Source of the DNA: Lactobacillus sp. CBA3606
GTDB taxonomy: Bacteria > Bacillota > Bacilli > Lactobacillales > Lactobacillaceae
NCBI RefSeq assembly: GCF_002970935.1
Contig: NZ_CP027194.1
Coordinates: 1 to 64,000 of the forward strand
DNA length: 64,000 nt
Direction of reading: 5' to 3'
Part shown: one piece after another, positions 6,037 through 42,129 of the stretch
Position numbering within the stretch: the first letter of the stretch is position 1
How the letters are laid out: each line of letters opens with the position of its first letter
Translations under genes and position numbers: made by a program
The notes under the pieces: model-generated
The model's input: the letters and a program-made list of their open reading frames with translations, nothing else
Databases searched by the model: none
Told to the model about the DNA's origin: nothing

Positions 6037-6579
6037 ATGGAAAACCGTTTAAAAGCTCAATATGAAAAAGAAATCGTCCCAGCATTAGTTGACAAGTTTA
6101 ATTACACTTCAGTAATGCAAGTACCTAAGCTGGCAAAGATTGTTTTGAACATGGGTGTTGGTGATGCAGTCACTAACGCTAAGAACTTAGACGAAGCCGT
6201 TGAAGAATTGACTTTGATCGCGGGCCAAAAACCTTTGGTTACTCGTGCAAAGAAATCTATCGCTGGTTTCCGTCTTCGTGAAGGTATGGCAATTGGTGCC
6301 AAAGTTGACTTACGTGGTGAACGTATGTATGACTTCTTGGATAAATTGATCAATGTATCATTACCACGTGTTCGTGACTTCCATGGTGTAAGCACTCGTT
6401 CATTTGATGGGCGCGGTAACTACACATTGGGTGTCCGTGAACAATTGATCTTCCCAGAAATCAACTATGATAATGTTAACCGTGTACGCGGTTTGGACAT
6501 TGTACTCGTAACGACAGCTGATAGTGATGAAGAATCACGTGAGTTGTTAACTCAATTTGGCATGCCATTTGCTAAATAA
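6037..6579 (+). CDS. rplE: 50S ribosomal protein L5
   Basis: L5 (180 aa) binds 5S rRNA in the central protuberance and touches the P-site tRNA. The sequence has the family motifs [11 protein letters not shown] and [12 protein letters not shown] and a C-terminal LLTQFGMPF. An AAAGGAGG site precedes the ATG. Position between rplX and rpsN is standard. Confidence 0.98.
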
Positions 6580-9362: not shown

Positions 9363-10658
9363 TTGCTGACTACCATGAAGAACGCTCTGAAAGTTAAGGA
9401 TATTCGGAATAAAATTCTGTTCACGTTGGGCGTTTTGATTGTATTTCGTCTTGGCTCTTATATCACAGTTCCAGGGGTTAATGCAAAGGCGCTACAATCG
9501 GTTGCATCATCTGGACTGATAAGTATGTTGAATACATTCAGTGGTGGCGGCTTAACAAATTATTCTATCCTTGCTATGGGGGTATCCCCTTACATTACGG
9601 CACAAATCATTGTTCAATTGTTACAAATGGACATTGTTCCAAAGTTTGTTGAATGGGGCAAACAAGGTGAAGTTGGACGTCGGAAGCTTAATCAAGCGAC
9701 GCGATATTTAACAATCATCTTGGCGTTCGTTCAATCGATTGGTATTACGGCTGGTTTTAACTCCCTAAGCTCGCTTAAATTAGTTAGCAATCCAAGCGTG
9801 TCAACCTATCTAACGATTGGGCTCATCTTAACTGGTGGCGCCATGTTGACAACTTGGATGGGAGATATGATCACTGATCGTGGGATTGGTAATGGTGTTT
9901 CTATCATTATCTTTGCTGGGATTATTGCGCGTACACCAACTTCGATTTATCAAATTTATCAAGAACAATTTGTCAATGTAGCAAAAAGTCAGTGGTGGTT
10001 GAGTATTTTATTTGTGGTTGGATTGTTACTCTTGGTCATCATCATCGTTATGTTTGTAACGTGGGTTGAACAAGCTAATGATCGAATTCCAATTCAATAT
10101 ACACGACGTGCAGCTGGTGCACCTGATAGTAGTTATCTACCATTAAAGGTGAATGTTGCCGGGGTTATTCCTGTTATCTTCGCGAGTTCCTTCATCGCAA
10201 CGCCACAGACAATTTTACTTGGTTTCCAATCCAGCCATGGTGACGAAACTTGGTATACAGTTATGAGTAACATCTTTAATATGCAGTCAACGACTGGTGC
10301 GATATTATATACCGTATTAATTGTGCTTTTCACGTTTTTCTATGCGTTTGTTCAGGTTAATCCTGAAAAACTCTCTAAAAACTTACAAAAGCAAGGCAGC
10401 TATATTCCGGGCGTTTGGCCTGGTAAAGATACTCAGGGCTGGGTATCTAAATTGTTAATGCGGTTAAGTACGGTTGGTGCCCTTTACCTTGGATTAATTT
10501 CCTTGATTCCATTGCTTGCTTCAGATATCTGGGGTTTGGATGAATCAATCGGGTTAGGTGGGACTAGTTTACTAATCGTGGTTGGGGTTGCCCTTGAAAC
10601 TATTCGTCAAATTAAAGGGTTAATGATGAAGCGCGACTATGTCGGTTTCATTCGTTAA
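9363..10658 (+). CDS. secY: Preprotein translocase channel subunit SecY
   Basis: SecY forms the protein-conducting channel of the cytoplasmic membrane and works with SecE, SecG and SecA. The 431-residue product shows about ten hydrophobic segments and family signatures such as RLGSYITVPGV and GISPYITAQI-type residues (here GVSPYITAQIIVQL). The start is taken as TTG at 9363, seven bases after GAGGTG; an ATG four codons later is spaced too far. It is the last gene of the spc segment, translationally close to rplO. Confidence 0.97.
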   Translation: MLTTMKNALKVKDIRNKILFTLGVLIVFRLGSYITVPGVNAKALQSVASSGLISMLNTFSGGGLTNYSILAMGVSPYITAQIIVQLLQMDIVPKFVEWGKQGEVGRRKLNQATRYLTIILAFVQSIGITAGFNSLSSLKLVSNPSVSTYLTIGLILTGGAMLTTWMGDMITDRGIGNGVSIIIFAGIIARTPTSIYQIYQEQFVNVAKSQWWLSILFVVGLLLLVIIIVMFVTWVEQANDRIPIQYTRRAAGAPDSSYLPLKVNVAGVIPVIFASSFIATPQTILLGFQSSHGDETWYTVMSNIFNMQSTTGAILYTVLIVLFTFFYAFVQVNPEKLSKNLQKQGSYIPGVWPGKDTQGWVSKLLMRLSTVGALYLGLISLIPLLASDIWGLDESIGLGGTSLLIVVGVALETIRQIKGLMMKRDYVGFIR

Positions 10659-12822: not shown

Positions 12823-13767
12823 ATGATTGAATTTGAAAAACCTAACATTCATAAAATTGATGAAAACGACAACTATGGTAAGTTTGTTGTAGAACCACTT
12901 GAACGTGGTTATGGTACAACTTTAGGGAATTCACTTCGTCGGATTCTTCTTTCTTCTTTACCTGGCGCTGCTGTTACCAGTATTCAAATTGACGGGGTTC
13001 TTCATGAATTTTCAACGGTAGAAGGCGTAACTGAAGATGTTACGGCAATTATCTTGAATGTAAAGAAGATCGCGCTTAAATTAGAATCAGACGAAACCAA
13101 GGCATTGGAAATCGATGTTAAGGGACCTGCTAACGTTACCGCTGGTGATATCATTGGCGATGCTGACGTAGAAGTCTTAAATCCTGATTTAGCAATTTGT
13201 ACTGTTGCAGATGGTGCACACTTCCATATGCGTATGACTGCTAATACTGGTCGTGGTTATGTTTCCGCTGAGGATAACAAACATCGTGAAGATGATATGC
13301 CAATTGGCGTTTTGCCTGTTGATTCATTATATTCTCCAATTGAACGTGTCAACTACCAAGTTGAAAACACGCGGGTTGGTCAACGTGATGATTTTGATAA
13401 GTTAACCTTAGACGTTTGGACAAATGGTTCAATCACTCCAAGTGAAGCCATTAGTCTATCAGCCAAAATCCTGACTGATCACCTTTCAATCTTCGTAAAT
13501 CTCACTGATGAAGCTAAAAACACTGATGTGATGGTTGAGAAAGAAGAAACGCATAAGGAAAAAATGTTAGAAATGACGATTGAAGAGTTAGATCTCTCAG
13601 TTCGTTCATATAATTGTTTGAAACGTGCGGGTATTAACACGGTTCAAGAATTAACTAACAAAACTGAAGCTGATATGATGAAGGTTCGCAACCTTGGGCG
13701 CAAGTCGCTTGAGGAAGTTAAAGCTAAGTTAGCTGACCTTGGGTTATCATTACGCAAAGAAGACTAA
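12823..13767 (+). CDS. rpoA: RNA polymerase alpha subunit
   Basis: RpoA (314 aa) dimerises to start RNA polymerase assembly. Its C-terminal domain touches UP elements and regulators. The N-terminal domain carries [21 protein letters not shown]; the C-terminal domain carries [20 protein letters not shown] and the helix-hairpin-helix [20 protein letters not shown] site precedes the ATG. Order rpsK-rpoA-rplQ is standard. Confidence 0.98.
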
Positions 13768-13788: not shown

Positions 13789-14172
13789 ATGAGTTACCGT
13801 AAATTACAACGTACAAGTTCACAACGTCGTGCCTTACTTCGTGATTTGACTAGTTCATTAATCGTTAACGGTCGCATCGAAACTACTGAAGCTCGCGCTA
13901 AGGAAGTTCGTTCGACTACTGATAAGATGATTTCATTAGCTAAGAAGGGCGATTTACACGCTCGTCGTCAAGCCGCTACCTTTATGCGGGACATCGTTGC
14001 TGATGTTAAGGAAGAAGACGACAACGTAACTGTACAAACTGCTTTGCAAAAGCTATTTAGTGACCTAGGTCCTCAATATGCTGACCGCAATGGTGGTTAT
14101 ACACGAATTTACAAGACTATGCCTCGTCGTGGCGATGGTGCCCACATGGTTGTCTTGGAACTCGTTGACTAA
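13789..14172 (+). CDS. rplQ: 50S ribosomal protein L17
   Basis: L17 (127 aa) lies near the tunnel exit. The start [20 protein letters not shown] and the end [13 protein letters not shown] are diagnostic. It is the last gene of the ribosomal superoperon on this side. In related lactobacilli the next genes are usually ecfA1-ecfA2-ecfT; here they come 6.7 kb later. Confidence 0.98.
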
Positions 14173-14324: not shown

Positions 14325-14376
14325 GAAAAAGCGTCTAGATTGAGTGGATTTAAACTCAATCTAGACGCTTTTTTTA
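14325..14376. terminator. Bidirectional terminator between rplQ and dmkB
   Basis: A perfect 15-base stem (14331-14345 with 14354-14368) has an eight-base loop, AAAAA before it and TTTTTTT after it. It can stop transcription from both rplQ (+) and dmkB (-). Confidence 0.9.
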
Positions 14377-14382
14377 GTTAAG

Positions 14383-15372
14383 TTAATTATGTCGATCCAA
14401 TAGTTGCTGCGTTAATTGGATTAAAGTGGTGCGAGTTGCATTGTTTGGCAGTTTATTTAATAAATGTAAAGCTTGATTGGTGTAACGGGTGGCTAATTGT
14501 TTAGCCTGCTCAATGCCACCGGCGGCGATAACAATGGTCTGAACACGGTGACGGTCAGTCGCGTTAATTTGTCCTTGCTGGCGTAATAAGGGCAGTAACT
14601 CAGTTCGGTAGTCAGTTTGTAGGGCAAAGATGAGTGGCGATGTGTAGACACCCTCGGCCACATCTTCTAAGATTGGCTTTCCAATTTCCGGACTAACGGC
14701 TTGATAGTCGAGAATATCGTCTAGAATTTGAAATGCCATCCCAATGGCTAGGCCGATTTTACGAGCTCGAGCAGCAAATGGGGCGCTTTGACCGGATTCG
14801 TATGCGCCAAGGAAACAGCTCAATGCGAAGAGCTCAGCTGTTTTACCTTGAATTTGTTCTTGATATTGCGCCATCGTAATATCAATGCGGTAATGGCGAT
14901 CTTTCTGTTGGACCTCACCAATTAGAATTTTTTCCATATTTTCGGAATTTAACTGGATGCTTTTAAAACTACTTGAGTATTGCGCTAGTATTTTAAATAC
15001 GACGACGAATAGATAATCACCGGCATAGACTGCGACATCTTTACCGAATTGCTCTTGGATGCTGGCCTGATGGCGTCTAAGCTTAGCATCGTCTAAGATA
15101 TCATCATGAATTAAAGTCGCTGTATGCAACGTTTCTAGCGCCGCTGCGAGGGCAATCATTCGCTGCCGGTCGGTTGTTTTAAATTGTGAAAATAACAGAC
15201 AGTAGGCTGGCCGCAAGAGTTTACCACCACTGTGAATCATTTCGAGAATGGCACTAGTAATGGCGGTATCGGAAATATTAATATTAGCATCCATTAGTTG
15301 CATAACTTGCTGTAACTCTGGTTGTAAAGTTGGATAATCATGCCAAAGTGGATGTAATTGCGTTGCTTGCAT
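14383..15372 (-). CDS. dmkB: Polyprenyl diphosphate synthase of the EET locus (DmkB)
   Basis: This all-alpha prenyltransferase (329 aa) extends allylic diphosphates with isopentenyl diphosphate to make the side chain of demethylmenaquinone. The two Asp-rich Mg-binding motifs are DDILD at residues 90-94 and DDILD at 218-222, with the substrate-binding GGKLLRPAYCLL near 49. It starts six bases after the eetB stop behind AAAGGAG, so it is the last gene of the eetA-eetB-dmkB unit. A paralog lies at 41029-42006. The chain length made cannot be read from sequence. The EET role follows from the neighbours and from the same linkage in Listeria. Confidence 0.88.
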   Translation of the reverse strand: MQATQLHPLWHDYPTLQPELQQVMQLMDANINISDTAITSAILEMIHSGGKLLRPAYCLLFSQFKTTDRQRMIALAAALETLHTATLIHDDILDDAKLRRHQASIQEQFGKDVAVYAGDYLFVVVFKILAQYSSSFKSIQLNSENMEKILIGEVQQKDRHYRIDITMAQYQEQIQGKTAELFALSCFLGAYESGQSAPFAARARKIGLAIGMAFQILDDILDYQAVSPEIGKPILEDVAEGVYTSPLIFALQTDYRTELLPLLRQQGQINATDRHRVQTIVIAAGGIEQAKQLATRYTNQALHLLNKLPNNATRTTLIQLTQQLLDRHN

Positions 15373-15378
15373 GAAAAG

Positions 15379-15948
15379 TTACTCCTTTTTTTGACTTGGT
15401 CGTTGTTCATGATTAAAACGTAAATAGCTCAGACTGGTCACATGGGTAAAGAGGTAATTGGCGGCAATCCCGAGTGCACTACCGGCCGCTAAGCCAATGA
15501 TTGATAGTACGGGTAGGTACAACATGACGGTCCAAGTCTGGGCGATAAAGCTGGCGACTAAAAGTTGACCGACATTGTGCATCACACCACCGGTGGCAGA
15601 AATGCCAATAATACTAACCCGTTTTGGTCCGAGTTGTTTAACAAGTAACATAGTAAATAAACTGAGAAAAGCCCCACCAAAACTATAGATAAAGGTTGAT
15701 AGCGTCCCCCCTAAGAGGGCGGTTAAGATTAAGCGTAACCAGGTTAAGGTAATGACATCACGAAAAGATAGCGTGAAGATAGCGACAATGGTAATGAGAT
15801 TCGCTAACCCCAGTTTCGCACCAGGAGCAAAGGCGAAAGGGAAGGGAATCATGCGCTCTAAAATGCCAATAATGACGCCCTGGGCCACTAAAAGGGCAAT
15901 ATAAATGTTTCGGTGTGTCTTATTTGATTGTTCATATGAATTATTCAA
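15379..15948 (-). CDS. eetB: Membrane protein EetB (Gx transporter / heptaprenyl synthase component I family)
   Basis: The 189-residue protein has about five hydrophobic segments and belongs to the family often called heptaprenyl diphosphate synthase component I. In the EET system it acts with EetA and Ndh2 in the cytoplasmic membrane; its mechanism is not known. The start is taken as TTG at 15948: a GGAG site lies seven bases upstream inside the end of eetA, with only four bases between the genes. An ATG farther upstream (16014) would overlap eetA by 62 bases and adds a polar tail unlike the family. Confidence 0.82.
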   Translation of the reverse strand: MNNSYEQSNKTHRNIYIALLVAQGVIIGILERMIPFPFAFAPGAKLGLANLITIVAIFTLSFRDVITLTWLRLILTALLGGTLSTFIYSFGGAFLSLFTMLLVKQLGPKRVSIIGISATGGVMHNVGQLLVASFIAQTWTVMLYLPVLSIIGLAAGSALGIAANYLFTHVTSLSYLRFNHEQRPSQKKE

Positions 15949-15952
15949 GATT

Positions 15953-16432
15953 TTACTCCGTAACCAGTCCGTTGCCGCCCGCTTTGACTTGACCGGTACT
16001 AGACTTGATTTCAATTAAGATCTTATGGGGCAAACAGACAATCGTCTGTCCCGGCTTATGAATCCAGCCCCGGCGGACACAAACTTGATCCGAACAGTTG
16101 GCCTTAGTAATCGCGACACGTTTGGCTTTAAATGTGATTTGATTATAGTGGCCAGCTTGATCACGATACGTATAGTGCTGGGTTTTAGCTAATGTCGTTA
16201 AATTAACCCGTTTTAAGACATGCCCATCATGTGAAACAACCGCAGTTAAGGTATGTGGCGTCTTTTTGGCACTTTGAGCGGCTTGGATAGCTTGTTGCCG
16301 TTGCTGGTAGGAGAAAACGGCCAAAGGTGCAAATGACAAAATGAGCAAGCATACAATAATAATGAAATCAAACGGACGTAACATTGCGCCATATCGTTTT
16401 AATAGTTGGTTGGTTGCACGTAAACGATGCAT
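15953..16432 (-). CDS. eetA: Extracytoplasmic NusG domain II protein EetA
   Basis: The 159-residue product has an N-terminal membrane anchor (about 21-41) and an exported NusG domain II. That domain holds the family's segment with Cys113, Cys118 and Cys133 (ANCSDQVCVRRGW, then KPGQTIVCLPHKI). EetA and EetB are required for flavin-based electron transfer in Listeria, although the function of this domain is unproven. The ATG at 16432 sits behind AAAGGAGG; an upstream ATG at 16471 has none. It starts a three-gene unit with eetB and dmkB and follows a terminator placed after ndh2. Confidence 0.85.
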   Translation of the reverse strand: MHRLRATNQLLKRYGAMLRPFDFIIIVCLLILSFAPLAVFSYQQRQQAIQAAQSAKKTPHTLTAVVSHDGHVLKRVNLTTLAKTQHYTYRDQAGHYNQITFKAKRVAITKANCSDQVCVRRGWIHKPGQTIVCLPHKILIEIKSSTGQVKAGGNGLVTE

Positions 16433-16455
16433 GCTTTGGCCTCCTTTTAGGTTGA

Positions 16456-16494
16456 ATAAAAAATGGTTCAAGGTAAAAGCTACCCTTGAACCAT
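16456..16494 (-). terminator. Terminator between ndh2 and eetA
   Basis: Read on the - strand, ATGGTTCAAGG (16494-16484) pairs perfectly with CCTTGAACCAT (16473-16463) across a ten-base loop and is followed by TTTTTTA. It stands between ndh2 and the start of eetA. It should lower expression of eetA-eetB-dmkB relative to ndh2 unless read through or bypassed by an internal promoter. Confidence 0.85.
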
Positions 16495-16524
16495 CGGGAA
16501 ACGATTTAATTAATTATACCGCAA

Positions 16525-18390
16525 TTAACGGGTTTTAACACCATCATAGTGGGAACGAACGTTGCCGTACCACCAATGACCGAGATGTTTTTGTAACCAC
16601 GGAACGACCCAATAATCCAACCCAAAGGTCCGACCAGAACCGTTCATTAATGCGATGGCAGCGAAAATCATCCACAAGTTGACCCAGTAGAACATCCCTG
16701 ATAAACAGAAAACGATGACTAAACCAATTGTGATTCCGTTTGCTAACCAAGTGAAGAGGCCGAAGAAGATACATAACGCAACGGCGATTTCAACGCAAGT
16801 CATTAACTTCTGGAAGAAGAAAGCCATCTGCATGTTAGGAATAAAGATCTTAGTGACCGATTCAAACCATGCTGGCATCTTATCAAAGACGAGCAAGGGA
16901 TCTTTTCCGTACATATAAGATAAACTAAAGATCCCTTTGGCGGCTTTAGAAGTTGATTCACTAGCACCACTAGTTGCAGAAACCTGTAACCAGGAGAAAG
17001 AGGTTAGTCGGAGTTTATCAACAAACCACGATTCTTTCCCTTGAACTTTAGTCCAACAATCCCAAAGCCACATTGCCCCGTAGAAGAACCGTAATGGCAC
17101 ACTCCATAAGACGTTGCCGGCTCGTGACGTCCAACCGCGGAAAACATTACGTTGGTTGCGTGTCCGGAAGAATTCGTGCATAAAGTACTGGAATAAATAA
17201 TAGCCTGAGAAAATTTGAACATAGTACATCCAGTTGATAGCATGCTTCAAGAGGACGGCAATGAAGCCAGAAACGTTCCATTTTTCAAGGACTTGAGCGA
17301 CGGCATACTTCGAACCAATCGAATCAACCGAAGCTTGGTAGGCCCCTTTAAATGGTTTAATGGTGACATCGGAATGATCAACATTTTTAATGATGCCTTG
17401 AACCGCAGTTGCCGCAGTTTCTTCAGCCCCTTGAACAATTTGTGGGACTGGACGTGGTTGATCGGGTTCTTGGTAGAACGTTGAATCACCAGCTAAGAAG
17501 ATGTTCTTGCAGCCTTTAGCTTGCATGAATTCATTGGCAGCGAGCCGACCGCCACGACCAGTTTCGATACCAAACTTATCAACGACACCATTGGCGCGCA
17601 CACCAGCAGTCCAAATCAAAGTATAAGTTGGTAAATCAGCTTGGTCTTTTAAGGTCACGTGATCTTCAAAGACGCCAGTAATCATTGAATTTGTCTTGAT
17701 GGTAACACCATGTTTAATCATGTACTTCTCAGCTTTGCCAGCCTGAGTTCGATTTAACATGTTGATAATTGTTGGCGCAGCTTCAACGAGTTGTAACGTA
17801 ATTTCGTTAGGGTCAAGCTTATTATCACGAGCTAAGACATCTCGATATTCGATTAATTCACCGACTAATTCAGAACCAGTAAACCCAGAACCACAGACGG
17901 TTAAAGTTAACATGGCTTTGCGTTTGGCTGGGTCTAACTCAACGGCCCCACGACGAATCACCGCTGCTAAGTGTGACCGGAGTGCCATCGCTTGTTCGAA
18001 GGACCACAATTCGAAACCGTGTTCCTTGACGCCAGGGGTCCCAAAGTCATTAGACTCGCCACCCAAACTAATGAGTAATTGGTCGTACTGGTAACTACCA
18101 TTTTCAGTAGTAACCGTTTGCTTTTCTTTATCAATTCCCGTAACCGTGTCGGTAACTAAGCGGACATTCTTCCGACGAGAAAATAACCGTTGCAAATCAT
18201 ATTGAATATGCTCTGGATCAACTCGTTCAGTAGCAACTTCATGTAGTTCAGTCATGTACGTGAAGTATGAATGCCGGTCAATTAACGTGATTTCAACGTC
18301 AGCATTCTTTTTAAAATGCTTCGCTAATTTCTTTGTCGCGTAAACTCCGGCAAATCCCGCGCCGACAACGACAATATTTTTCTTTGCCAT
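16525..18390 (-). CDS. ndh2: Type II NADH dehydrogenase with C-terminal membrane domain (Ndh2)
   Basis: Ndh2 passes electrons from NADH to quinone without pumping protons. The N-terminal FAD/NAD domain shows GAGFAG at residues 10-15, the ATG-like LIWTAGVRAN segment and the second FAD motif NIFLAGDST. Unlike ordinary NDH-2 enzymes of about 400 residues, this one has 621. The extra C-terminal part holds three or more hydrophobic stretches, a DoxX-like membrane domain typical of the EET enzymes. The ATG follows AAGGGAG. It is divergent from pplA, sharing a 285-base control region, and is followed by a terminator and eetA. Confidence 0.9.
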   Translation of the reverse strand: MAKKNIVVVGAGFAGVYATKKLAKHFKKNADVEITLIDRHSYFTYMTELHEVATERVDPEHIQYDLQRLFSRRKNVRLVTDTVTGIDKEKQTVTTENGSYQYDQLLISLGGESNDFGTPGVKEHGFELWSFEQAMALRSHLAAVIRRGAVELDPAKRKAMLTLTVCGSGFTGSELVGELIEYRDVLARDNKLDPNEITLQLVEAAPTIINMLNRTQAGKAEKYMIKHGVTIKTNSMITGVFEDHVTLKDQADLPTYTLIWTAGVRANGVVDKFGIETGRGGRLAANEFMQAKGCKNIFLAGDSTFYQEPDQPRPVPQIVQGAEETAATAVQGIIKNVDHSDVTIKPFKGAYQASVDSIGSKYAVAQVLEKWNVSGFIAVLLKHAINWMYYVQIFSGYYLFQYFMHEFFRTRNQRNVFRGWTSRAGNVLWSVPLRFFYGAMWLWDCWTKVQGKESWFVDKLRLTSFSWLQVSATSGASESTSKAAKGIFSLSYMYGKDPLLVFDKMPAWFESVTKIFIPNMQMAFFFQKLMTCVEIAVALCIFFGLFTWLANGITIGLVIVFCLSGMFYWVNLWMIFAAIALMNGSGRTFGLDYWVVPWLQKHLGHWWYGNVRSHYDGVKTR

Positions 18391-18441
18391 TGCGTAACAA
18401 CTCCCTTGAATAATAATATTAAAATAATGATTCCGTCTTTA

Positions 18442-18470
18442 ATTATATAAGTAATGTAAACGTTTGTCTA
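18442..18470 (-). promoter_or_regulatory. Predicted ndh2 promoter with an overlapping cre-like site
   Basis: On the - strand, TAGACA (18470-18465) and TATAAT (18447-18442) are 17 bases apart. Between them, and touching the -35, lies ATGTAAACGTTTGTC (18454-18468 read on +). It matches the CcpA operator pattern WTGNAANCGNWNNCW at all but one specified position. A cre inside the promoter would normally repress on rapidly used sugars. The call rests on consensus reading only. Confidence 0.45.
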
Positions 18471-18604
18471 TGAATTATTGGGAAGAATGAATAATAAATC
18501 ACATTGTATTAGGCAGGAGATTTGTTAATCTAATGAAGAAAATGAAAAACGTTACCATTAGCGCTATCAATAGCCTAGAATGTCATTAAATTATTAATAT
18601 TGTG

Positions 18605-18633
18605 TTGACTATTTGGGGAATACACGTTAAGAT
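18605..18633 (+). promoter_or_regulatory. Predicted pplA promoter
   Basis: TTGACT (18605-18610) and TAAGAT (18628-18633) are spaced by 17 bases. The start point would lie near 18640, about 35 bases before the pplA ATG, leaving a short leader with a GAGGAGTGGG ribosome binding site. Confidence 0.6.
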
Positions 18634-18675
18634 TAATGTGAATTTTCATACAAAAAGGTTGAGGAGTGGGATATT

Positions 18676-19602
18676 ATGAAGTTTAAGTCAATTGTTACGG
18701 GTGCATCAGTAGTTGTTATTTCCGCATTAGCATTAGCAGGTTGTGGGAGCAGCTCATCGAGTTCAAGTTCGTCATCTTCAAAGAAAAGCAGTTCATCTTC
18801 GTCATCAGCTAAAACGACTAAGGTCGCTAAGTTAACGGCTGGTAGCAAGATGAAGGCTGGGACTTACAAACTTGAAGAAACAAACTATTCACATGGTTAT
18901 CGGGCGAAGTTCAGTATTACCGTTAATAACAAAGGTAAAGTGACAAAGTCAGATTATGATCAAGTTAACAAGCAAGGCAAGTCTAAAGTAGATGATGCTT
19001 CTTACAATAAGCAAATGAAGAAGGTTTCTGGGACTAATCCTAAGACCTATGAACCAAAATTGAACAAGGCTTTAGAAGGCGCAGCAGCAACGGGGAATGT
19101 GGCATCAATTGATGTTGTTTCAGGCGCTACTGAATCATCAAAATCCTTCCAAAACTATGCGCAACAATTAGTTCAAGCTGCACAAGCTGGTAACACTGCG
19201 ACGATTAAAATCAATAACGGTGCTAAGATGAAAGATGGGACGTATAACCTATCTGAAAAGAACTATTCACACGGCTACCGGGCAACCTTTGCTATTACCG
19301 TTAAGGATAACAAGATTACGAAGTCTGAATACGACCAAGTTAATAAGAAGGGCAAGTCAAAAGTTGACGATGCCGCTTATAACAAGCAAATGAAGAAGAT
19401 TTCTAAGACGAATCCTAAGACTTATGAACCAGCTTTAAACAAAGCTTTAGTTAAGGATAGTGATCCAACTAAGGTTGACGTGGTTACTGGTGCAACTGAA
19501 TCATCAAATACCTTCGTTTTATATGCGGAACAATTACAAAATGCCGCACAAAATGGCGATACTAAGGCGATCACAGTTGATAACATGGTCTTCTCTGACT
19601 AA
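18676..19602 (+). CDS. pplA: Flavinylated surface lipoprotein PplA with two FMN-binding domains
   Basis: PplA is the extracellular electron carrier of the EET system. The 308-residue product has a signal peptide with a lipobox ending at Cys23, a serine-rich spacer (25-44), then two near-identical FMN-binding domains. Each carries the threonine-flavinylation motif Dxx(S/T)GAT: DVVSGAT at 146-152 and DVVTGAT at 268-274, so Thr152 and Thr274 should carry FMN, 122 residues apart. Repeated blocks such as NYSHGYRA and KSKVDDA point to internal duplication. It is divergent from ndh2 and followed by its own terminator and by fmnB, the enzyme expected to modify it. Confidence 0.93.
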   Translation: MKFKSIVTGASVVVISALALAGCGSSSSSSSSSSSKKSSSSSSSAKTTKVAKLTAGSKMKAGTYKLEETNYSHGYRAKFSITVNNKGKVTKSDYDQVNKQGKSKVDDASYNKQMKKVSGTNPKTYEPKLNKALEGAAATGNVASIDVVSGATESSKSFQNYAQQLVQAAQAGNTATIKINNGAKMKDGTYNLSEKNYSHGYRATFAITVKDNKITKSEYDQVNKKGKSKVDDAAYNKQMKKISKTNPKTYEPALNKALVKDSDPTKVDVVTGATESSNTFVLYAEQLQNAAQNGDTKAITVDNMVFSD

Positions 19603-19627
19603 TCAATAAGCCATAACAATTTTTTGA

Positions 19628-19660
19628 GGCCTGAGGCGCTTTGTCTCAGGTCTTTTGTTT
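19628..19660 (+). terminator. Terminator after pplA
   Basis: GGCCTGAG (19628-19635) pairs with CTCAGGTC (19645-19652, one G-T pair) and is followed by a T-rich tail. It separates pplA from fmnB, which has its own promoter. Confidence 0.75.
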
Positions 19661-19702
19661 TAAATTTAGCCCAGAAAAATGGCATACAGTGGCTAGAAAC
19701 TT

Positions 19703-19711
19703 TGGTATAAT
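19703..19711 (+). promoter_or_regulatory. Predicted extended -10 promoter of fmnB
   Basis: TGGTATAAT (19703-19711) combines a TGN extension with a perfect TATAAT; no clear -35 is seen. The fmnB ATG lies 34 bases downstream behind AAGGGGAAG. Confidence 0.6.
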
Positions 19712-19744
19712 AACGATTGAAATTAGTTAAGGGGAAGTTACACG

Positions 19745-20857
19745 ATGAAATTAAAAAAATGGCTCCAACTCGTTGTCGTCGTGGCCTTAATTGTGCCATT
19801 AACTGCTTGTGGAACTAAAACGGCACAGCAAAAAAAAGCGGCTCAACGACCTAAACCCACTAAAGTGGTGCAAACGCCAACCGAAGATACGCAATTTATG
19901 ATGGGAACCGTTGTGACCTTACGGGTTTATAATAAGGGTAAAAGTGACGTGGTCGCCGGCGCATTTAAGTTATTGAAAAAAGAAGCTAAGGAAGTTACGA
20001 CCAATGCGAAAGGCTCAGAAATCGATAAAGTTAATGCCGCTGCCGGTAAACATGCGGTGGTTGTCAGCCGGGATGTTTATCCAATTTTAAAGGCCGCCTA
20101 TTATTATAGTAAGAATTCGGATGAATCCTTCGATATGGCGATTGGGTCGATTACGCAATTATGGCGAATTGGTTTCTCGGATGCTCGCGTCCCAAGTCAA
20201 GCTGAGATTGCGACTAATGTTAAGTTAGTTGATTATACTAAGGTTAAGCTCAACGACCAAAAGCGTTCGGTTTATCTGACGGAAAAAGGCATGAAGTTGG
20301 ACTTAGGCGGGATTGCCAAAGGGTATATGACCGATCAAGTGCAAAAGTATTTCTTGAATCACGGCGTTTCAACGGCAATTATTGATTTAGGTGGCAATAT
20401 TTATGTGATGGGCAACAGTCCTAAGAAAACGAAGTCTGGGAACTGGACCGTCGGCATTCAAGACCCGAAACAATCTCGGGGGACGTCAATTGGCTCATTG
20501 CCTGCTAAAAATAAATCAATTGTGACTTCAGGAATTTATGAACGCTACCTTAAAAAAGATGGTAAAGTTTATAGCCATTTGATGGATCCTAAAACAGGGT
20601 CGCCGTTTCAAAATAATTTGATGGGTGTTTCCATTATTTCGAAAAAGTCGACCGATGGGGATGGTCTATCGACCGCGACTTTTGACAAAGGGTTAAAGGC
20701 CGGGATGACCTATATCAATGGTAAAGCAGATCAAGGTATTGGCGCTATCTTTATTACTAAAGATAAAAAAGTTTATGTTTCGAATAATCTGAAAAAGAAA
20801 TTTACGTTATTCAGTGATACTGGGTACCATTACGGACCAGCAAGTGATTTGAAATAG
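19745..20857 (+). CDS. fmnB: FAD:protein FMN transferase of the EET locus (FmnB, ApbE family)
   Basis: FmnB takes the FMN part of FAD and links it to threonine in Dxx(S/T)GAT motifs of exported proteins; the neighbour PplA is the obvious target. The 370-residue protein has a lipoprotein signal (lipobox LTAC, Cys22), so it acts on the outer face of the membrane. ApbE-family motifs visible are MMGTVVTLRVYN, DLGGIAKGY, DLGGNIYVMG and SHLMDPKTGSP. Known family members need Mg and FAD. It lies between pplA and ecfA1, whose ECF module can supply external flavin. Confidence 0.92.
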   Translation: MKLKKWLQLVVVVALIVPLTACGTKTAQQKKAAQRPKPTKVVQTPTEDTQFMMGTVVTLRVYNKGKSDVVAGAFKLLKKEAKEVTTNAKGSEIDKVNAAAGKHAVVVSRDVYPILKAAYYYSKNSDESFDMAIGSITQLWRIGFSDARVPSQAEIATNVKLVDYTKVKLNDQKRSVYLTEKGMKLDLGGIAKGYMTDQVQKYFLNHGVSTAIIDLGGNIYVMGNSPKKTKSGNWTVGIQDPKQSRGTSIGSLPAKNKSIVTSGIYERYLKKDGKVYSHLMDPKTGSPFQNNLMGVSIISKKSTDGDGLSTATFDKGLKAGMTYINGKADQGIGAIFITKDKKVYVSNNLKKKFTLFSDTGYHYGPASDLK

Positions 20858-20864
20858 CGCAGTA

Positions 20865-20873
20865 TGGTATGAT
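20865..20873 (+). promoter_or_regulatory. Possible extended -10 promoter before ecfA1
   Basis: TGGTATGAT (20865-20873) lies in the 50-base gap between fmnB and ecfA1. No strong -35 is visible. It could uncouple the housekeeping ECF genes from the EET genes upstream. Confidence 0.35.
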
Positions 20874-20907
20874 AATAGGCATAAAATTAAGGAAATGAGG
20901 GACGACG

Positions 20908-21750
20908 GTGAGTCAGATGATTGACGTTGCACATTTAGATTATCGTTACCCGCAACAGTCGGCGGATGACCTAACGTTAAAAGATATTTCGTTTTCAGTC
21001 GCAGCTGGTGAATGGCTGGCAATTGTCGGACATAACGGGTCCGGTAAGTCGACATTGGCTAAAAACTTAAATGGCCTATTAGCGCCAGCAGCCGGCAAAA
21101 TTACGATTGACGGGCAAGTGTTGTCTGAAACAACCGTCTGGGATATTCGAAAAAAGATCGGCATGGTTTTCCAGAATCCCGATAATCAATTTGTGGGTGC
21201 CACGGTTGCCGATGATGTGGCGTTTAGCCTCGAAAATCAAGGTGTCCCGCGACCTGAAATGTTGGAACGTGTGGCAACCGCGTTAGCCCAGGTTGGCATG
21301 AGCGACTTTGCGACCCGTGAACCGGCGCGCTTGTCCGGTGGGCAAAAGCAGCGGGTGGCGTTAGCTGGGATGATTGCGGCACGGCCACAAATCTTGATCT
21401 TGGATGAGGCCACGTCGATGCTAGACCCTCGCGGCCGGTATGATGTGTTACAGACCATTCGTCAGATGAAGGCCCAATCGAATTTAACGGTACTATCAAT
21501 TACACATGATATTGATGAAGCGGCGAATGCCAATCGGGTGTTGGTCGTTAACGATGGTCAGCTGGTTGAAGAGGGCACGCCGGCCGAAATTTTCCAGCAT
21601 GGTCCGGCTTTAATAAAAATGGGCTTAGACATGCCCTATGCTGAACGACTAAAGGCCGCGTTAAAACGACAAGGCGTGCAAGTGCCCACGGCATACTTAA
21701 CGGAGAAAGGGATGGCGGACTGGTTATGGCAATTGATTTCAAACAAGTAG
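20908..21750 (+). CDS. ecfA1: ECF transporter ATPase EcfA1
   Basis: EcfA1 (280 aa) is one of the two ATPases of the shared energy-coupling module for vitamin transporters. Walker A is [12 protein letters not shown], the signature is [13 protein letters not shown] and Walker B is ILILDEATS. The start is GTG behind GAGGGACG. It overlaps ecfA2 by 25 bases. In EET bacteria the same module is proposed to move flavin outward with a RibU-type S component. Confidence 0.96.
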
Positions 21751-22613
21751 ATTTTACCTACCAACCGGGCACCCCCTTCGAAACGCAAGCCTTGATGGAC
21801 ATTAATGTGTCGATTCCGACCGGTTCATATACGGCATTGATTGGGCATACCGGGAGTGGTAAATCAACATTATTGCAACATCTCAATGCCTTGTTGAAGC
21901 CGACTCACGGGACTGTAACGATTGGCGACCGGGTAATTACAGCTGCCACGAGTAATAAAGACTTAAAGTCGTTACGGCAACACGTGGGGATTGTTTTTCA
22001 GTTTCCTGAAAGCCAATTATTTGAAGAAACCGTTGCTAAAGACATTGCGTTTGGACCGCAGAACTTTGGTGCCAGTGAAACGGATGCGTTAGCGACGGCT
22101 GCTAAAATGTTAACTTTAGTGGGCTTAGACCAATCCCTGCTGGAACGGTCACCGTTTGACTTGTCCGGTGGTCAGATGCGCCGAGTCGCAATTGCCGGTG
22201 TGCTGGCTATGGCACCCAAAGTATTAGTCCTCGATGAACCGACAGCCGGGTTAGACCCGCAAGGACGCTTTGATATGATGGAGATGTTTGCCCGGTTACG
22301 CCATGAGCAACAGCTGACCATTGTGCTCGTCACACACCAAATGGATGATGTGGCTAATTATGCGGATCATGTGATTGTGATGGATCAAGGTCGCATTGCC
22401 AAAACGGGGACACCACGAGAAATTTTTAAAGATCCCGCATGGTTAGCGGCTCATCAATTGGGACTGCCCAAGACGACTGCTTTTGCCCAACAATTGGCGG
22501 CTAAAGGCTTGTTATTAGACCCACAGCCCTTAACGGAAGATCAGTTAGCGGCAGCCTTAGTTAAACAATTACCGGCCACGGCCTTTAGGACTGGTGACGC
22601 ACATGATGAATAA
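21726..22613 (+). CDS. ecfA2: ECF transporter ATPase EcfA2
   Basis: EcfA2 (295 aa) pairs with EcfA1. Walker A is [12 protein letters not shown], the signature is [13 protein letters not shown] and Walker B is [12 protein letters not shown]. The start lies inside the end of ecfA1, and the 3' end overlaps the start of ecfT, so the three are translationally linked. Confidence 0.96.
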
Positions 22614-23403
22614 ATTGATTTTTGGGCGTTATATTCCTGGTGATTCTGTTATTCATCATATGGATCCGCGTGCCAAATTGTTATTGAGTTTTTATTTTAT
22701 CGGTATTATTTTTATTGCGAATAATTGGCCAACTTATGTGGCGTTATTTGTTTTTACGTTAATTGCTATTAAATTATCGGGTGTTAAATGGTCCTTCTTT
22801 ATTAATGGTGTCAAACCGTTGATTTGGTTAATCTTGTTTACAGTCGTGCTACAAGTCTTGTTTAGTGCGAGTGGCGGTCAGGTGTACTTTAAATGGGGGA
22901 TTATCACAATCAGTCAATTAGGACTCGTTAATGGGATCTATATTTTCTGTCGGTTTGTGTTGATTATCTTTATGTCAACATTGCTAACCTTAACAACACC
23001 GCCGTTGGAATTGTCAGATGCGATTGAATATATTTTGATGCCTTTAAAAGTGGTCCATTTTCCGGTCTATGAAGTGGCGTTAATGTTATCAATTGCGTTG
23101 CGCTTTGTGCCAACATTAATGGATGAAACTGAAAAGATCATGAATGCGCAACGCGCGCGCGGTGTTGATTTTGGTGAAGGAAATATTTTTCAACAAATGC
23201 GTGCCATTGTCCCGTTACTGATTCCTTTGTTTGTGAGTTCCTTTAATCGCGCTGAAGATCTAGCGACGGCTATGGAAGCTCGAGGTTATCAAGGTGGCGA
23301 AGGCCGCAGCAAGTTTCGAATTTTGAAGTGGCAGCGGCGCGATACGTGGGCGACTGTGAGCTTTATCGTTTTAACGGGTGTGCTGATTTATTTAAGAGCC
23401 TAA
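22603..23403 (+). CDS. ecfT: ECF transporter transmembrane subunit EcfT
   Basis: EcfT (about 266 aa) is the membrane scaffold that couples the two ATPases to interchangeable S components. It has several hydrophobic segments and the two coupling-helix A-R-G motifs, in [12 protein letters not shown] and [10 protein letters not shown]. The start could be any of GTG 22594, ATG 22603 or ATG 22606; 22603 is a compromise. It overlaps ecfA2 and is followed by truA. Confidence 0.93.
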
Positions 23404-33909: not shown

Positions 33910-34497
33910 ATGAAGCAACGATCAAACGCCTATCATATTAGTGTATTAGCCGTGTTAATTGCGATTGTTATCATTCAAAATATTGTGCCATTTTTCGGGT
34001 ATATTCCGATTATGGGGTTAAGTTTAACGACGATTCATATTACAGTAATTATCGCCGCAGTCATTTTGGGCCCACGCGATGGCGCAATTATTGGCGGTGC
34101 TTGGGGCTTGCTTGATTGGATTCGTGCCTTTGTAGCGCCAACCAGCCCGTTAGCGCCATTGGTTTTTACAAATCCTTTGGTGTCAGTGTTGCCGCGGATT
34201 TTGATTGGGGTGGTCGCTGGCTGGGTCTTTATCTGGTTTCGGCGGCACAAAAAAACAACTTTGGGGCTAACGCTAGCTGGTATTGCCGGGTCGTTAACGA
34301 ACACGTTATTAGTTTTAGGCTTAATTGGCCTGTTGTATCGGCAACAGGCAGCGGGCTTCTACCAGGTTGATCTTGCCAAGCTAATGCCATATTTATTAAC
34401 GATTGTTGGGACAAACGGGGTCCCGGAAGCAATTTTGGCCGGTCTTTTGACCCCCTTAATTGGATTACCGCTACTACGATTTCGCCATGCGGCTTAA
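33910..34497 (+). CDS. ECF transporter S component, possibly PanT-type
   Basis: The 195-residue membrane protein has about six hydrophobic segments and the ECF S-component pattern, including HITVIIAAVILGPRDGAIIGG and TNPLVSVLPRILIGVVAGW. It would bind a vitamin and use EcfA1A2T (20.9-23.4 kb). The sequence looks like the PanT (pantothenate) group rather than RibU, whose conserved riboflavin-site region I cannot find. Substrate remains uncertain. It is monocistronic with a strong terminator. Confidence 0.8.
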   Translation: MKQRSNAYHISVLAVLIAIVIIQNIVPFFGYIPIMGLSLTTIHITVIIAAVILGPRDGAIIGGAWGLLDWIRAFVAPTSPLAPLVFTNPLVSVLPRILIGVVAGWVFIWFRRHKKTTLGLTLAGIAGSLTNTLLVLGLIGLLYRQQAAGFYQVDLAKLMPYLLTIVGTNGVPEAILAGLLTPLIGLPLLRFRHAA

Positions 34498-34958: not shown

Positions 34959-36398
34959 ATGAATTTAGGATTGAGTATTTTATCCTTAGCTCGTTTTCAG
35001 TTTGCGATGACGACGGTATTTCATTTTTTCTTTGTGCCATTATCAATTGGGTTAGCTTTAATCGTCGCTATTATGGAAACAATTTACGTTGTTAAGAAGG
35101 ATGAGTTATATAAACATATGGCGCAATTCTGGGGACGAATCTTTTTACTTAGCTTTGCCGTTGGTGTTGTTACTGGGATTATTCAAGAATTTCAATTTGG
35201 GATGAATTGGTCAGATTATTCACGGTTTATGGGTGATATTTTTGGTGCGCCATTGGCAATCGAAGCGTTGGTGGCGTTCTTTATGGAGTCAACGTTTATT
35301 GGCCTGTGGATGTTTGGTTGGGATCGATTTAACGCAGGAATTCATTGTGCGTTCATTTGGCTAACTGCCATTGGGACGATGATTTCCGCAATGTGGATTT
35401 TAGCGGCGAATAGTTTCATGCAAAATCCCGTTGGGTTTATGATTAATGCCAAAACTGGCCGGGCTCAAATGACCAGTTTTTCAGCGGTCATTAAAAATCC
35501 ACAGTTATGGTATGAATTACCCCATGTGTTGTTTGGCGCTTTCGTAACCGGTGCCTTTGTTGTGGCGGGGATGGCAGCGTTTGGTTTACTCAAAAAACGA
35601 AACGTTCAGTTCTTCCGCAAATCTATCACGATCAGTTTACTCGTTGGTCTGATTGCGACCATTGGGGTGGTTGGCATGGGCGATTTGCAAACCCGTTATA
35701 TTATTAAAGAACAGCCGATGAAGTTTGCAGCGACTGAAGGGTTGTATAAGGATTCAGGCTCACCGGCACCTTGGGCGATTATTGAGGGCTTAGATACCAA
35801 AAATCACCAAGCCAAATGGTCAATTGAAGTGCCGTATGTCTTAGATATCTTGAGCTATCATAAGTTAAGTGGGAATGTAAAGGGCCAAAACCGGCTGAAC
35901 AAAGAATTACATGCGAAGTATGATCATAAATTTGGTAAAAGCATGAATTACTATGTCCCAGCTAAAACATTATTCTGGAGTTTCCGGGTCATGGCAGTGT
36001 CTGGCGGCCTATTCGCGTTAATTGCGATTGTCGGCTTATTCTTTAACCGTGCCAGTTCAACGTTGATTGAACGGCAGCGTTGGTTCTTATGGGTTTTAGG
36101 AATCTGTACGTTCTTACCATTTGCTGCGAATACGGCGGGCTGGTTCATTACTGAATTAGGTCGTTATCCATGGGTCGTTTATGGGTTGTTAACAATCGCG
36201 GATGCCGTCTCACCAAATGTGAGCGTGGCGTCACTATTGATTTCAAATATCATTTACTTCTGTTTATTCAGTGGCTTAGGCGTTGTTATGATTGTCTTAT
36301 CACGGCGGACGTTACGTCAGGGTCCGGATGATTTGTTACAAGCGGCCGATGATGCACCATATGATCCATACGGCAAGGGGGCCTTCAGTCATGAGTAA
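34959..36398 (+). CDS. cydA: Cytochrome bd quinol oxidase subunit I
   Basis: CydA (479 aa) binds the hemes b558, b595 and d and oxidises quinol, reducing O2 to water in the cytoplasmic membrane. Visible features are the heme-ligand His22 (TTVFHFFFVPL), the glutamates of the EALVAFFMEST segment near 99-107 and GRYPW late in the protein. It is shorter than the E. coli subunit, matching the short Q-loop type of Firmicutes. It overlaps cydB by eight bases. Lactiplantibacillus needs added heme to use this enzyme. Confidence 0.96.
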   Translation: MNLGLSILSLARFQFAMTTVFHFFFVPLSIGLALIVAIMETIYVVKKDELYKHMAQFWGRIFLLSFAVGVVTGIIQEFQFGMNWSDYSRFMGDIFGAPLAIEALVAFFMESTFIGLWMFGWDRFNAGIHCAFIWLTAIGTMISAMWILAANSFMQNPVGFMINAKTGRAQMTSFSAVIKNPQLWYELPHVLFGAFVTGAFVVAGMAAFGLLKKRNVQFFRKSITISLLVGLIATIGVVGMGDLQTRYIIKEQPMKFAATEGLYKDSGSPAPWAIIEGLDTKNHQAKWSIEVPYVLDILSYHKLSGNVKGQNRLNKELHAKYDHKFGKSMNYYVPAKTLFWSFRVMAVSGGLFALIAIVGLFFNRASSTLIERQRWFLWVLGICTFLPFAANTAGWFITELGRYPWVVYGLLTIADAVSPNVSVASLLISNIIYFCLFSGLGVVMIVLSRRTLRQGPDDLLQAADDAPYDPYGKGAFSHE

Positions 36399-37386
36399 CT
36401 TACAATTCTTATGGTTTGTGTTAGTTGGCGTTTTGTTTAGTGGCTTCTTCTTCTTAGAAGGATTTGACTTTGGGGTTGGGATGACGATTAAGAGCTTAGC
36501 CCAAACAAGGCAAGAACGGGATGTTGTGATTCATACGATTGGTCCGCACTGGGACGCTAACGAAGTTTGGTTGATCACTGCCGGTGGTGCCATGTTTGCA
36601 TCGTTTCCAATGTGGTATGCGTCATTATTTTCTGGCTTTTATCTAATTCTGTTATTTATTCTGGTGGCTTTAATTATGCGTGGCGTCTCCTTTGAATTTC
36701 GGAGTCGGATGGCAACTGCTGCTGGCCGCAACTTTTGGGAATGGGCCGCTGCAATTGGTAGCTTTTGTGCCGCATTCTTGTTTGGCATGATGTTCACTGC
36801 GCTCGTTAAAGGGATGCCGATTGATGCAAATGGTAATCTCACCGCCCACTTTACGGATTACGTCAATCCGTTCACGTTAGTTGGTGGGGTGGCGGTTACC
36901 TTACTATGTTACTTACATGGCTTGAATTTTATTCGGTTAAAGACGACGGGAACTTTACGGCAGCGCGCACTTCAGTGGGCTAAACCCCTTTATTGGGTCT
37001 TGTTCGCTGGTGAGGTCTTGTTCGCAGTCTTACTCTATTTCAATACCGACTTTTTCACGAAACGGCCAGTGTCAACGTTGATTTTAGTGGTTGCCCTAGT
37101 GGCGTTGACGGTCTTAGCGACGTGGGGTGTATATGGCAATCATGAATGGTTATCCTTTATCGGCAGTGGCTTATCATTGATTGATGTCGTGGTCTTATTG
37201 TTTAATGGCCTGTTCCCACGGGTGATGGTTGCCAACAATGCCGCTCACAGTATTCTAATTAAGAATGCGTCGAATTCACCATATACGCTACATGTGATGA
37301 CTATCATTACTCTGACGGTGTTACCGATTATGTTGGCTTACTTTATCTGGAGTTATTGGGTATTTTATAAGCGCCTAGCATCGTAA
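36391..37386 (+). CDS. cydB: Cytochrome bd quinol oxidase subunit II
   Basis: CydB (331 aa) is the partner subunit of CydA, with eight to nine hydrophobic segments and the family start FLWFVLVGVLFSGFFFLEGFD. The ATG at 36391 lies inside the end of cydA, with AAGGGGGCC as ribosome binding site; the longer upstream frame is not coding. A terminator-like hairpin follows. Confidence 0.95.
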   Translation: MSNLQFLWFVLVGVLFSGFFFLEGFDFGVGMTIKSLAQTRQERDVVIHTIGPHWDANEVWLITAGGAMFASFPMWYASLFSGFYLILLFILVALIMRGVSFEFRSRMATAAGRNFWEWAAAIGSFCAAFLFGMMFTALVKGMPIDANGNLTAHFTDYVNPFTLVGGVAVTLLCYLHGLNFIRLKTTGTLRQRALQWAKPLYWVLFAGEVLFAVLLYFNTDFFTKRPVSTLILVVALVALTVLATWGVYGNHEWLSFIGSGLSLIDVVVLLFNGLFPRVMVANNAAHSILIKNASNSPYTLHVMTIITLTVLPIMLAYFIWSYWVFYKRLAS

Positions 37387-37400
37387 AAGTTGTTTGAATC

Positions 37401-37440
37401 AGATCGTGACTTAGCAATGAATAAGTCACGATCTTTTGTG
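37401..37440 (+). terminator. Terminator or attenuator between cydB and cydC
   Basis: AGATCGTGACTTA (37401-37413) pairs perfectly with TAAGTCACGATCT (37422-37434) over an eight-base loop, followed by a T-rich tract interrupted by GTGA. It stands 26 bases before cydC and may keep CydCD below CydAB. Confidence 0.75.
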
Positions 37441-37465
37441 ATTTTTGAGTGAGGAGGGATGGTCA

Positions 37466-40944: not shown

Positions 40945-40958
40945 CATTAACTTAGGCC

Positions 40959-41001
40959 AAAAAATGCGGCAAGAATCTTATGAATTCTTGCCGCATTTTT
41001 T
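40959..41001. terminator. Bidirectional terminator after cydD
   Basis: AAAAAATGCGGCAAGAAT (40959-40976) pairs perfectly with ATTCTTGCCGCATTTTTT (40984-41001). It works for the cyd operon and for the convergent prenyl synthase gene. Confidence 0.94.
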
Positions 41002-41028
41002 GGGTTAAATCACCTTTTAGGCCTTGGA

Positions 41029-42006: not shown

Positions 42007-42129
42007 GCACCGTCACTCCATACGGGTGGGCTGAATCAACCCTTGCAGCCCCACCTATTCTAAAATACAATCTATATTAAAGGTACAAATAACTGGAAAC
42101 GTTGTCAAATAAAAGGGGGAGGCATTTTC

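Follow-up and report, generated by a model that had tools for sequence, protein, structure and literature searches.

The first 64,000 nucleotides of contig NZ_CP027194.1 of Lactobacillus sp. CBA3606, referred to here as the window, carry the genes of a flavin-based extracellular electron transfer (EET) cassette between the ribosomal gene rplQ and ecfA1, which encodes an ATPase of the energy-coupling factor (ECF) module. The open reading frame (ORF) list places six genes in this interval, arranged in two divergent arms, dmkB-eetB-eetA-ndh2 on the minus strand and pplA-fmnB on the plus strand. These coordinates, names and strands are those of the first-pass annotation of the window, and matches to Pfam and NCBIfam support each assignment. 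On the minus strand, dmkB (14383-15372) encodes a long-chain polyprenyl diphosphate synthase (PF00348, polyprenyl_synt, 204.8 bits), eetB (15379-16014) an ECF substrate-binding-like subunit (PF07456, Hpre_diP_synt_I, the EetB family, 159.8 bits) and eetA (15953-16471, start uncertain) a NusG domain II protein (PF07009, NusG_II, 107.6 bits). The fourth gene, ndh2 (16525-18390), encodes an NADH dehydrogenase that trees and a PF07992 match (Pyr_redox_2, 143.4 bits) assign to the EET type; the match covers residues 5-324 of 621, and the C-terminus, its membrane part, is hydrophobic. Since the eetB ORF as listed, with a TTG start, overlaps eetA by 62 bp, the true start of eetB probably lies further in. 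On the plus strand, pplA (18676-19602) encodes a lipoprotein (NF041941, 444.7 bits with a cut-off of 325) with two FMN_bind domains that carry the flavinylation motifs DVVSGAT and DVVTGAT, and fmnB (19745-20857) encodes an ApbE-family flavin transferase (PF02424, 270.1 bits).

The left flank is formed by rpoA (12823-13767, plus strand, from the ORF list) and rplQ (13789-14172, plus strand), which is the last gene of the alpha operon and served as the landmark query in related genomes. On the right, and likewise on the plus strand, follow ecfA1 (20908-21750; NF010156, 457 bits with a cut-off of 392), ecfA2 (21726-22613, an ECF ATPase gene named by sequence and position) and ecfT (22594-23403, the ECF transmembrane subunit; PF02361, 179.5 bits), and then truA, rplM and rpsI. 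The cassette had been described as lying inside a ribosomal gene cluster; it does lie between blocks of ribosomal genes, at the boundary of the alpha and ecf operons and not within an operon. Between the convergent rplQ and dmkB, a 20-bp perfect inverted repeat with an 8-nt loop (14326-14373) is likely a two-way terminator. The divergent ndh2/pplA promoter region (18391-18675) is kept in 17 aligned rows of the genus, all of which conserve the promoter-like boxes TAGACA-17-TATAAT toward ndh2 and TTGACT-17-TAAGAT toward pplA as well as further blocks, including AATGTGAATTTTCATAC 3' of the pplA -10 box. One of these conserved blocks, over the ndh2 -35 box, may be a cre-like element, and another element in the same region may be Crp/Fnr-like. 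Between pplA and fmnB lies a terminator-like hairpin (19626-19654, plus strand), recognised by a consensus match only. The 50-bp gap between fmnB and ecfA1 (20858-20907, plus strand) holds a promoter-like sequence, TATGNTATGATAAT, conserved in most of 14 aligned rows. Co-transcription of ecfA1 from the pplA promoter is possible, and ecfA1 keeps this promoter-like sequence of its own.

The locus contains the components by which a FLEET (flavin-based EET) locus is recognised, namely Ndh2 with a C-terminal membrane part, EetA, EetB, a two-domain PplA, FmnB and DmkB. None of the six cassette proteins has a UbiA match indicative of DmkA, and UbiA matches above the cut-off are found in the genome at 42187, 295843 and 329419, with a weaker one at 1519623. 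We regard the missing dmkA as variation within the FLEET family, given that DmkA is included in the published description of the L. plantarum locus irrespective of its position. The cassette also has no dedicated FmnA (a second EcfT); the PF02361 match closest to it is that of the housekeeping ecfT, at 22642, and the genome's three other PF02361 proteins, with scores of 86.3, 60.2 and 50.8 bits, are encoded at contig positions 1735214-1845436.

To place the cassette among its relatives, we used a draw of 330 Lactobacillaceae genomes from 40 genera, labelled g1 and so on; g1 is Lactiplantibacillus, g26 is Latilactobacillus, and g12 is, by our guess, Lacticaseibacillus. An EetA-family (PF07009) match was found in 63 of the 330 genomes and, order-wide, in 189 of 295. 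In 54 of the 63, eetA was accompanied by ndh2 and eetB; the other nine were not counted as carrying such a block (G042, G050, G074, G114, G174, G200, G225, G246 and G290), G050 being excluded on its PF07009 match with two stops alone. All 17 drawn Lactiplantibacillus genomes, CBA3606 included, carry the cassette, and both the rplQ and the ecf flank are visible in 15 of them, the remaining two stopping at a contig edge, one before ecfA1 and one before rplQ. A scan with the CBA3606 PplA returned 17 loci, 14 from Lactiplantibacillus, two from Latilactobacillus and one from an uncultured metagenome-assembled genome. Among the genomes read, the complete cassette at rplQ-ecfA1 is confined to Lactiplantibacillus. 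In the genomes of g12, g34, g26, g28 and g25 for which both places were read, the cassette is found away from this site, and in the four g30 genomes that have it, ndh2-eetA-eetB-dmkB leads directly into a second ecfA1-ecfA2-ecfT.

Several variants of these loci were recorded along the way. Between rplQ and dmkB, G038 has an insert with a single ORF of 2190 residues (L153 2415-8987) and G312 an insert of several kb (L092 1803-7561). In L071 (G000:C1:2340000-2352000), as in L069 and L070, some 4 kb of DNA interrupts an eetA-like gene, whose pieces in L071 are at 6219-6434 and 10302-10496; a match in G050 was noted with these. The interrupting DNA of L071 presumably carries genes for MerR-like, MerA-like and transposase-like proteins. 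Over about 11 kb, L071 shares 99% identity with parts of two genomes from other genera, which points to a recent transfer between genera. In genomes of other families (G345, G338, G365, G371, G412, G502, G399 and others), the distance between an EET-type ndh2 and ecfT on one contig is 24-95 kb in several cases, and in others the two are hundreds of kb apart.

The gene content of the cassette suggests an electron route that rests in part on published work in Listeria and L. plantarum and is in part inferred. Ndh2 would pass electrons from NADH to quinone. FAD (flavin adenine dinucleotide) would be exported by EetB together with the neighbouring EcfA1/EcfA2 and, presumably, EcfT; FmnB would attach FMN (flavin mononucleotide) to PplA, and PplA would hand electrons to outside acceptors. 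Published sources are cited by their PubMed Central identifiers. In L. plantarum, deletions of ndh2 and pplA impair ferrihydrite reduction, and electron transfer to the outside of the cell needs ndh2 and, conditionally, pplA (PMC8837199). In Listeria, the FAD exporter that feeds FmnB consists of EetB, FmnA and EcfA/EcfA' (PMC9973259). In lactobacilli it is EcfT that probably takes the role of FmnA, because the cassette has no dedicated FmnA, the other PF02361 proteins match much more weakly, and many g12 genomes have a single PF02361 protein. That match is the only one genome-wide in 10 of the 16 cassette-bearing g12 genomes, in which a dedicated FmnA is probably not needed. Second copies of ecfA1-ecfA2-ecfT or of ecfT accompany EET cassettes in g30 (L056, L087, L100, L086) and g25 (L036, L040). 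The EET-linked EcfT proteins of these two genera form a clade of their own apart from the housekeeping EcfT (100/98, the bootstrap being not fully settled), so these lineages have a dedicated EcfT copy, and the spread of the clade across two genera suggests transfer of an EET-ECF unit.

We then read the stretch 3' of rplQ in at least one genome from each of the 40 genera, often one genome per genus. The gap between rplQ and ecfA1 was below 700 bp in the representatives of 22 genera, so the statement that ecfA1 directly follows rplQ in most lactobacilli is correct for most genera and not for all. Unrelated or unidentified genes or variable gaps occupy the interval in seven genera (g2, g6, g9, g12, g15, g32 and g36), and ecfA1 was not found adjoining rplQ in three (g18, g19 and g20). 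EET-type genes lie inside the interval in eight of the 40 genera (g1, g7, g8, g17, g21, g25, g29 and g39) and, when g19 and g20 are added, in the interval or at the ecfA1 flank in ten. The pair dmkB-ndh2, oriented as in CBA3606, is present in the interval in all genomes read of g17 (17/17), g7 (2/2), g8 (1/1) and g39 (2/2), and no eetA, eetB, pplA or fmnB match was found in these intervals; ndh2 is fragmented in g17 G054 and apparently also in g8 G007. In g21, ndh2 stands alone in 8 of the 11 genomes with a complete interval, four further genomes that stop just after rplQ being outside this count. The ecf operon of g20 G114 lies away from rplQ, and a UbiA gene (dmkA), ndh2, eetB and dmkB are divergent from its ecfA1; a NusG_II match lies about 130 kb from these genes, and no close Ndh2 was found in g20 G019. 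In g19 G018, an ndh2-like gene is located upstream of the relocated ecfA1.

A different remnant was seen upstream of ecfA1 in four genomes, three of g25 and one of g29, where an ORF of 168-174 residues occurs (for example, L105 793-1317 and L146 709-1215). Two of these four ORFs were run against Pfam and gave no match. Comparison of three of the four with PplA gave a profile match over one FMN_bind domain (E 3e-13, 97.9%) and best BLASTP values of 2e-12, 1e-6 and 8e-9; the motif [ST]GA[ST] is absent from all three.

Such variety at one place might be explained if the boundary of the alpha and ecf operons were a permissive landing site that had received EET or respiratory genes several times independently. 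This would be in accordance with the unrelated or unidentified genes and variable gaps in the seven genera listed above, with the inserts of several kb that two Lactiplantibacillus genomes (G312 and G038) have between rplQ and dmkB, and with the oxidoreductases in the intervals of g15 G200 and g2 G100 (the latter 27% identical to Ndh2), neither of which we counted as EET-type. However, the EET-type genes share one orientation, their Ndh2 proteins form one clade, and ndh2 remains next to ecfA1 also in g20 and g19, in which the ecf operon no longer adjoins rplQ, so repeated arrivals seem unlikely.

The clade of Ndh2 proteins was obtained from a careful tree of 57 rows, in which the 25 ecfA1-flanking proteins (g1, g20, g21, g17, g7 and g39) grouped together with support of 97/87 and in 96% of 200 bootstrap trees. 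Outside it fell 18 Lactobacillaceae Ndh2 from cassettes located elsewhere and 14 from other families. Long, partial or near-copy rows were left out of this tree: 16 of 30 outgroup rows, L290 (g19), L271 (g36), L097 (g28), L086, L269 and L141. A quick tree of 79 rows set the ecfA1-flank proteins apart together with those of g19 and g8 (Shimodaira-Hasegawa-like approximate likelihood ratio test (SH-aLRT), 92), and in a DmkB tree g20 joined g1 (98). In a proxy species tree made from the rplQ, ecf, truA, rplM and rpsI proteins, all carriers fell, together with non-carriers, into one clade of 37 of the 64 rows (SH-aLRT 99).

Taken together, these results lead us to propose one old placement beside ecfA1 followed by stepwise loss, with a FLEET cassette at the rplQ-ecfA1 boundary since before the origin of the genus. 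The ancestor shared by a larger clade of Lactobacillaceae would have had an EET cassette beside ecfA1. Lactiplantibacillus would have retained the whole set apart from dmkA, which is absent from the interval, while other lineages would have retained dmkA-ndh2-eetB-dmkB, ndh2-dmkB, ndh2 or a PplA-like domain, or would have emptied the site. We give this reading, the mechanism outlined above included, a probability of roughly three in four. The genealogical backing for the old placement is Ndh2, and the remainder is inference. The first-pass annotation had left it between insertion of the EET genes next to the ECF module and loss in relatives. Of the two, loss from an older shared position has far stronger support, because EET-type genes lie in the interval or at the ecfA1 flank in 10 of the 40 genera and the Ndh2 proteins encoded beside ecfA1 group in a single clade; that suggestion is thereby borne out in part. 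As to whether the same genes occupy the interval in all deep branches, full sets or parts of them occur in those 10 genera, and the evidence does not establish the position as ancestral for the entire family, since genomes of g12, g34, g26, g28, g25 and g30 read at both places have the cassette elsewhere.

A recent horizontal insertion of the full cassette in the Lactiplantibacillus ancestor, selected to sit beside the ECF ATPases, would agree with the restriction of the full cassette at this site to the genus and with the joint travel of EET and ecf genes in g30 and g25. Yet the Ndh2 of the genus clusters with the remnants at the same site and not with cassettes elsewhere. The GC content of the cassette (0.375-0.450) is similar to that of the flanks (0.400-0.504), without a clear shift in base composition, and a check of the cassette ends revealed no direct repeats. 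We rejected a recent insertion on these grounds and on the remnants in relatives, and regard it as highly improbable.

Several observations weigh against the old placement and the proposed mechanism of electron transfer. The DmkB proteins of g17, g7, g8 and g39 fall outside the remaining DmkB and on a very long branch, where the Ndh2 result is neither confirmed nor excluded, and the Ndh2 of g19 and g36 were excluded from the careful tree as long branches. The proxy species tree draws on genes from the cluster under study, and forks in its backbone are unsettled. Parsimony requires at least five changes for the state "ndh2 next to ecfA1", or six when the PplA-like pieces are counted, so a single placement entails several complete losses. 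On the side of the mechanism, EcfT is unable to replace FmnA for export in Listeria (PMC9973259), and L. plantarum could dispense with dmkA and dmkB under the conditions used in PMC9888254, in which 1,4-dihydroxy-2-naphthoic acid (DHNA) itself is proposed as the shuttle; the quinone step would thus be condition-dependent.

Ndh2 itself differs between lineages in a way that parallels the loss of EET genes. Alignment and hydrophobicity place a 70-residue loop between predicted membrane helices at residues 450-519 of the CBA3606 protein (16834-17043, minus strand). This loop has 70-109 residues in 59 of 78 aligned rows, taken from EET-type loci and other families, and 3-9 residues in the other 19, which belong to g17, g7, g8, g39, g21, g19 and g36; L086 was left out of this table. 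No PF07009 match was found genome-wide in the drawn genomes of the short-loop genera, eetB having been sought only at the loci. The g20 protein has a loop of 80 residues, with eetB and no eetA at its site. Because the short state sits in two separate, supported places of the Ndh2 tree, g21 and g17/g7/g39, it most simply arose twice.

These data also bear on the possibility that a respiratory ndh2-dmkB pair came first to ecfA1 and was joined by EET genes in Lactiplantibacillus only. Outside that genus, ndh2-dmkB without EET genes is indeed the commonest state of the site (22 genomes of g7, g8, g17 and g39). However, the long loop in Lactiplantibacillus, g20 and other families makes the short loop most simply a derived state, and the rooting of the Ndh2 tree on other families speaks against basal short-loop proteins. 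Retention of dmkA and eetB at the site in g20 and the PplA-like piece at the site in g25 and g29 likewise argue against this order of events, which we consider very unlikely.

Within the loop, which follows the first C-terminal membrane helix, lies an ApbE-like motif, T473-S474-G475-A476-S477 (16960-16974, minus strand), which is invariant in the 17 rows of an alignment and contains S477 as candidate acceptor. The core motif [ST]GA[ST] occurs in 54 of the 59 long loops, compared with a shuffled mean of 1.8 (at most 8 in 1000 shuffles), and after thinning in 15 of 20, compared with 0.6. The full motif D-x-x-[ST]-G-A-[ST] occurs in 16 of the 59 long loops (0.08 when shuffled), all 16 from other families. 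The loop reads SATSGAS in CBA3606, AATSGAS in L. monocytogenes and VTTGAS in Enterococcus gilvus. ApbE recognises this motif, and in one system a change of its Asp to Ala had minor effects only (PMC12052999). We tentatively suggest that EET-type Ndh2 may be a covalent flavoprotein on the outer face, with FMN put by FmnB on the [ST]GAS serine (S477), that would form part of a wire from the membrane to PplA; lineages losing EET would have deleted the loop at least twice (g21 and g17/g7/g39) while keeping ndh2 beside ecfA1. We hold this idea, which comes from sequence comparison, to be possible rather than probable. Against it stand the absence of the motif aspartate from every Lactobacillaceae row, including that of CBA3606, the absence of the motif from five of the 59 long loops, and the long loop without the motif in Acetoanaerobium (Clostridia). 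The loop is probably extracytoplasmic, with hydrophobicity and charge not clear-cut on this point. An AlphaFold model of Ndh2, built from 17 sequences, had a mean pLDDT (predicted local distance difference test score) of 42 and was discarded as evidence. Long where EET genes are present and short where they are absent, the loop is a specific and easily tested candidate for the electron exit from the dehydrogenase.

Further electron-transport genes lie elsewhere in the window. A putative cydABCD-like cluster, named from its sequence, is located within 34959-43041, 14 kb 3' of the cassette. After the cyd-like genes comes a second polyprenyl diphosphate synthase-like gene (41029-42006, minus strand), and beside them, outside the cassette, is a menA-like UbiA prenyltransferase gene (42130-43041, plus strand; NF004752, 302.1 bits with a cut-off of 289), a possible DmkA. 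With this cluster and the menA-like gene near the EET cassette, the 64,000-nt window thus holds two electron-transport loci. A small hydrophobic protein (33910-34497) putatively resembles an ECF substrate-binding subunit.

Compared with known systems, the divergent order of the Listeria monocytogenes EET locus, ndh2-eetA-eetB-dmkB // pplA-fmnB, is the same as in CBA3606. The Listeria record, which is labelled as a plasmid, reads rpsJ / fmnA - gap - fmnB - pplA // ndh2 - eetA - eetB - polyprenyl synthase, and we presume the gap between fmnA and fmnB to be dmkA. That locus also adjoins a ribosomal operon (rpsJ), but upstream of the S10 operon and not at rplQ-ecfA1, and it carries its own fmnA, whereas in CBA3606 the housekeeping ecf operon occupies the place of dmkA-fmnA. 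The cassettes of g12 and Latilactobacillus have the same core order but lie elsewhere in the genome, with Ndh2 outside the ecfA1-flank clade. In g30 and g25, EET genes are linked directly to extra copies of ecfA1-ecfA2-ecfT and ecfT, respectively, unlike in CBA3606, where the neighbour is the housekeeping operon. A further close counterpart is the FLEET locus of L. plantarum NCIMB8826, with the same gene set in a different species of the same genus (PMC8837199, PMC9888254), described as Ndh2, FmnA/B, ATPase 1/2, DmkA, EetB/DmkB, PplA and EetA (PMC9888254); L. plantarum EGD-AQ4 (L162) has the same order from rplQ to ecfA1 as CBA3606.

The FLEET set and its link to the ECF ATPases are therefore already published for Lactiplantibacillus, and we rejected the notion that either is new (PMC9888254). 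The system had been called known and its position and linkage novel; the linkage is in print, and the ribosomal position went unmentioned in the literature searched. FLEET together with rplQ was not found there, and the text of the L. plantarum papers, figures and supplements aside, mentions neither the ribosomal position nor remnants in relatives. No mention of the Ndh2 loop motif or of Ndh2 flavinylation was found in the literature searched, which did not extend to the 2018 and 2019 Listeria reports. PMC10572741 covers Ndh2, flavinylation and ApbE, with ndh2 in a gene list only; PMC9888254 and PMC9094743 contain both "Ndh2" and "flavinylated", the second in their reference lists only; and Ndh2 is unmentioned in the main text of PMC8238504, PMC12052999, PMC11334425 and PMC9973259. 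An NADH dehydrogenase with a transmembrane helix is given as a mark of EET gene clusters in PMC8238504, so the membrane part of Ndh2 was already known. As far as the literature could be searched, the remnants in relatives and the Ndh2 loop are new observations. The rplQ-ecfA1 interval provides a graded natural series at one address, from the full set through partial sets and single remnants to the empty site, of what lactobacilli keep and drop when dismantling EET, and it points to FAD export that shares the housekeeping ECF module, a task for which Listeria requires an FmnA of its own.

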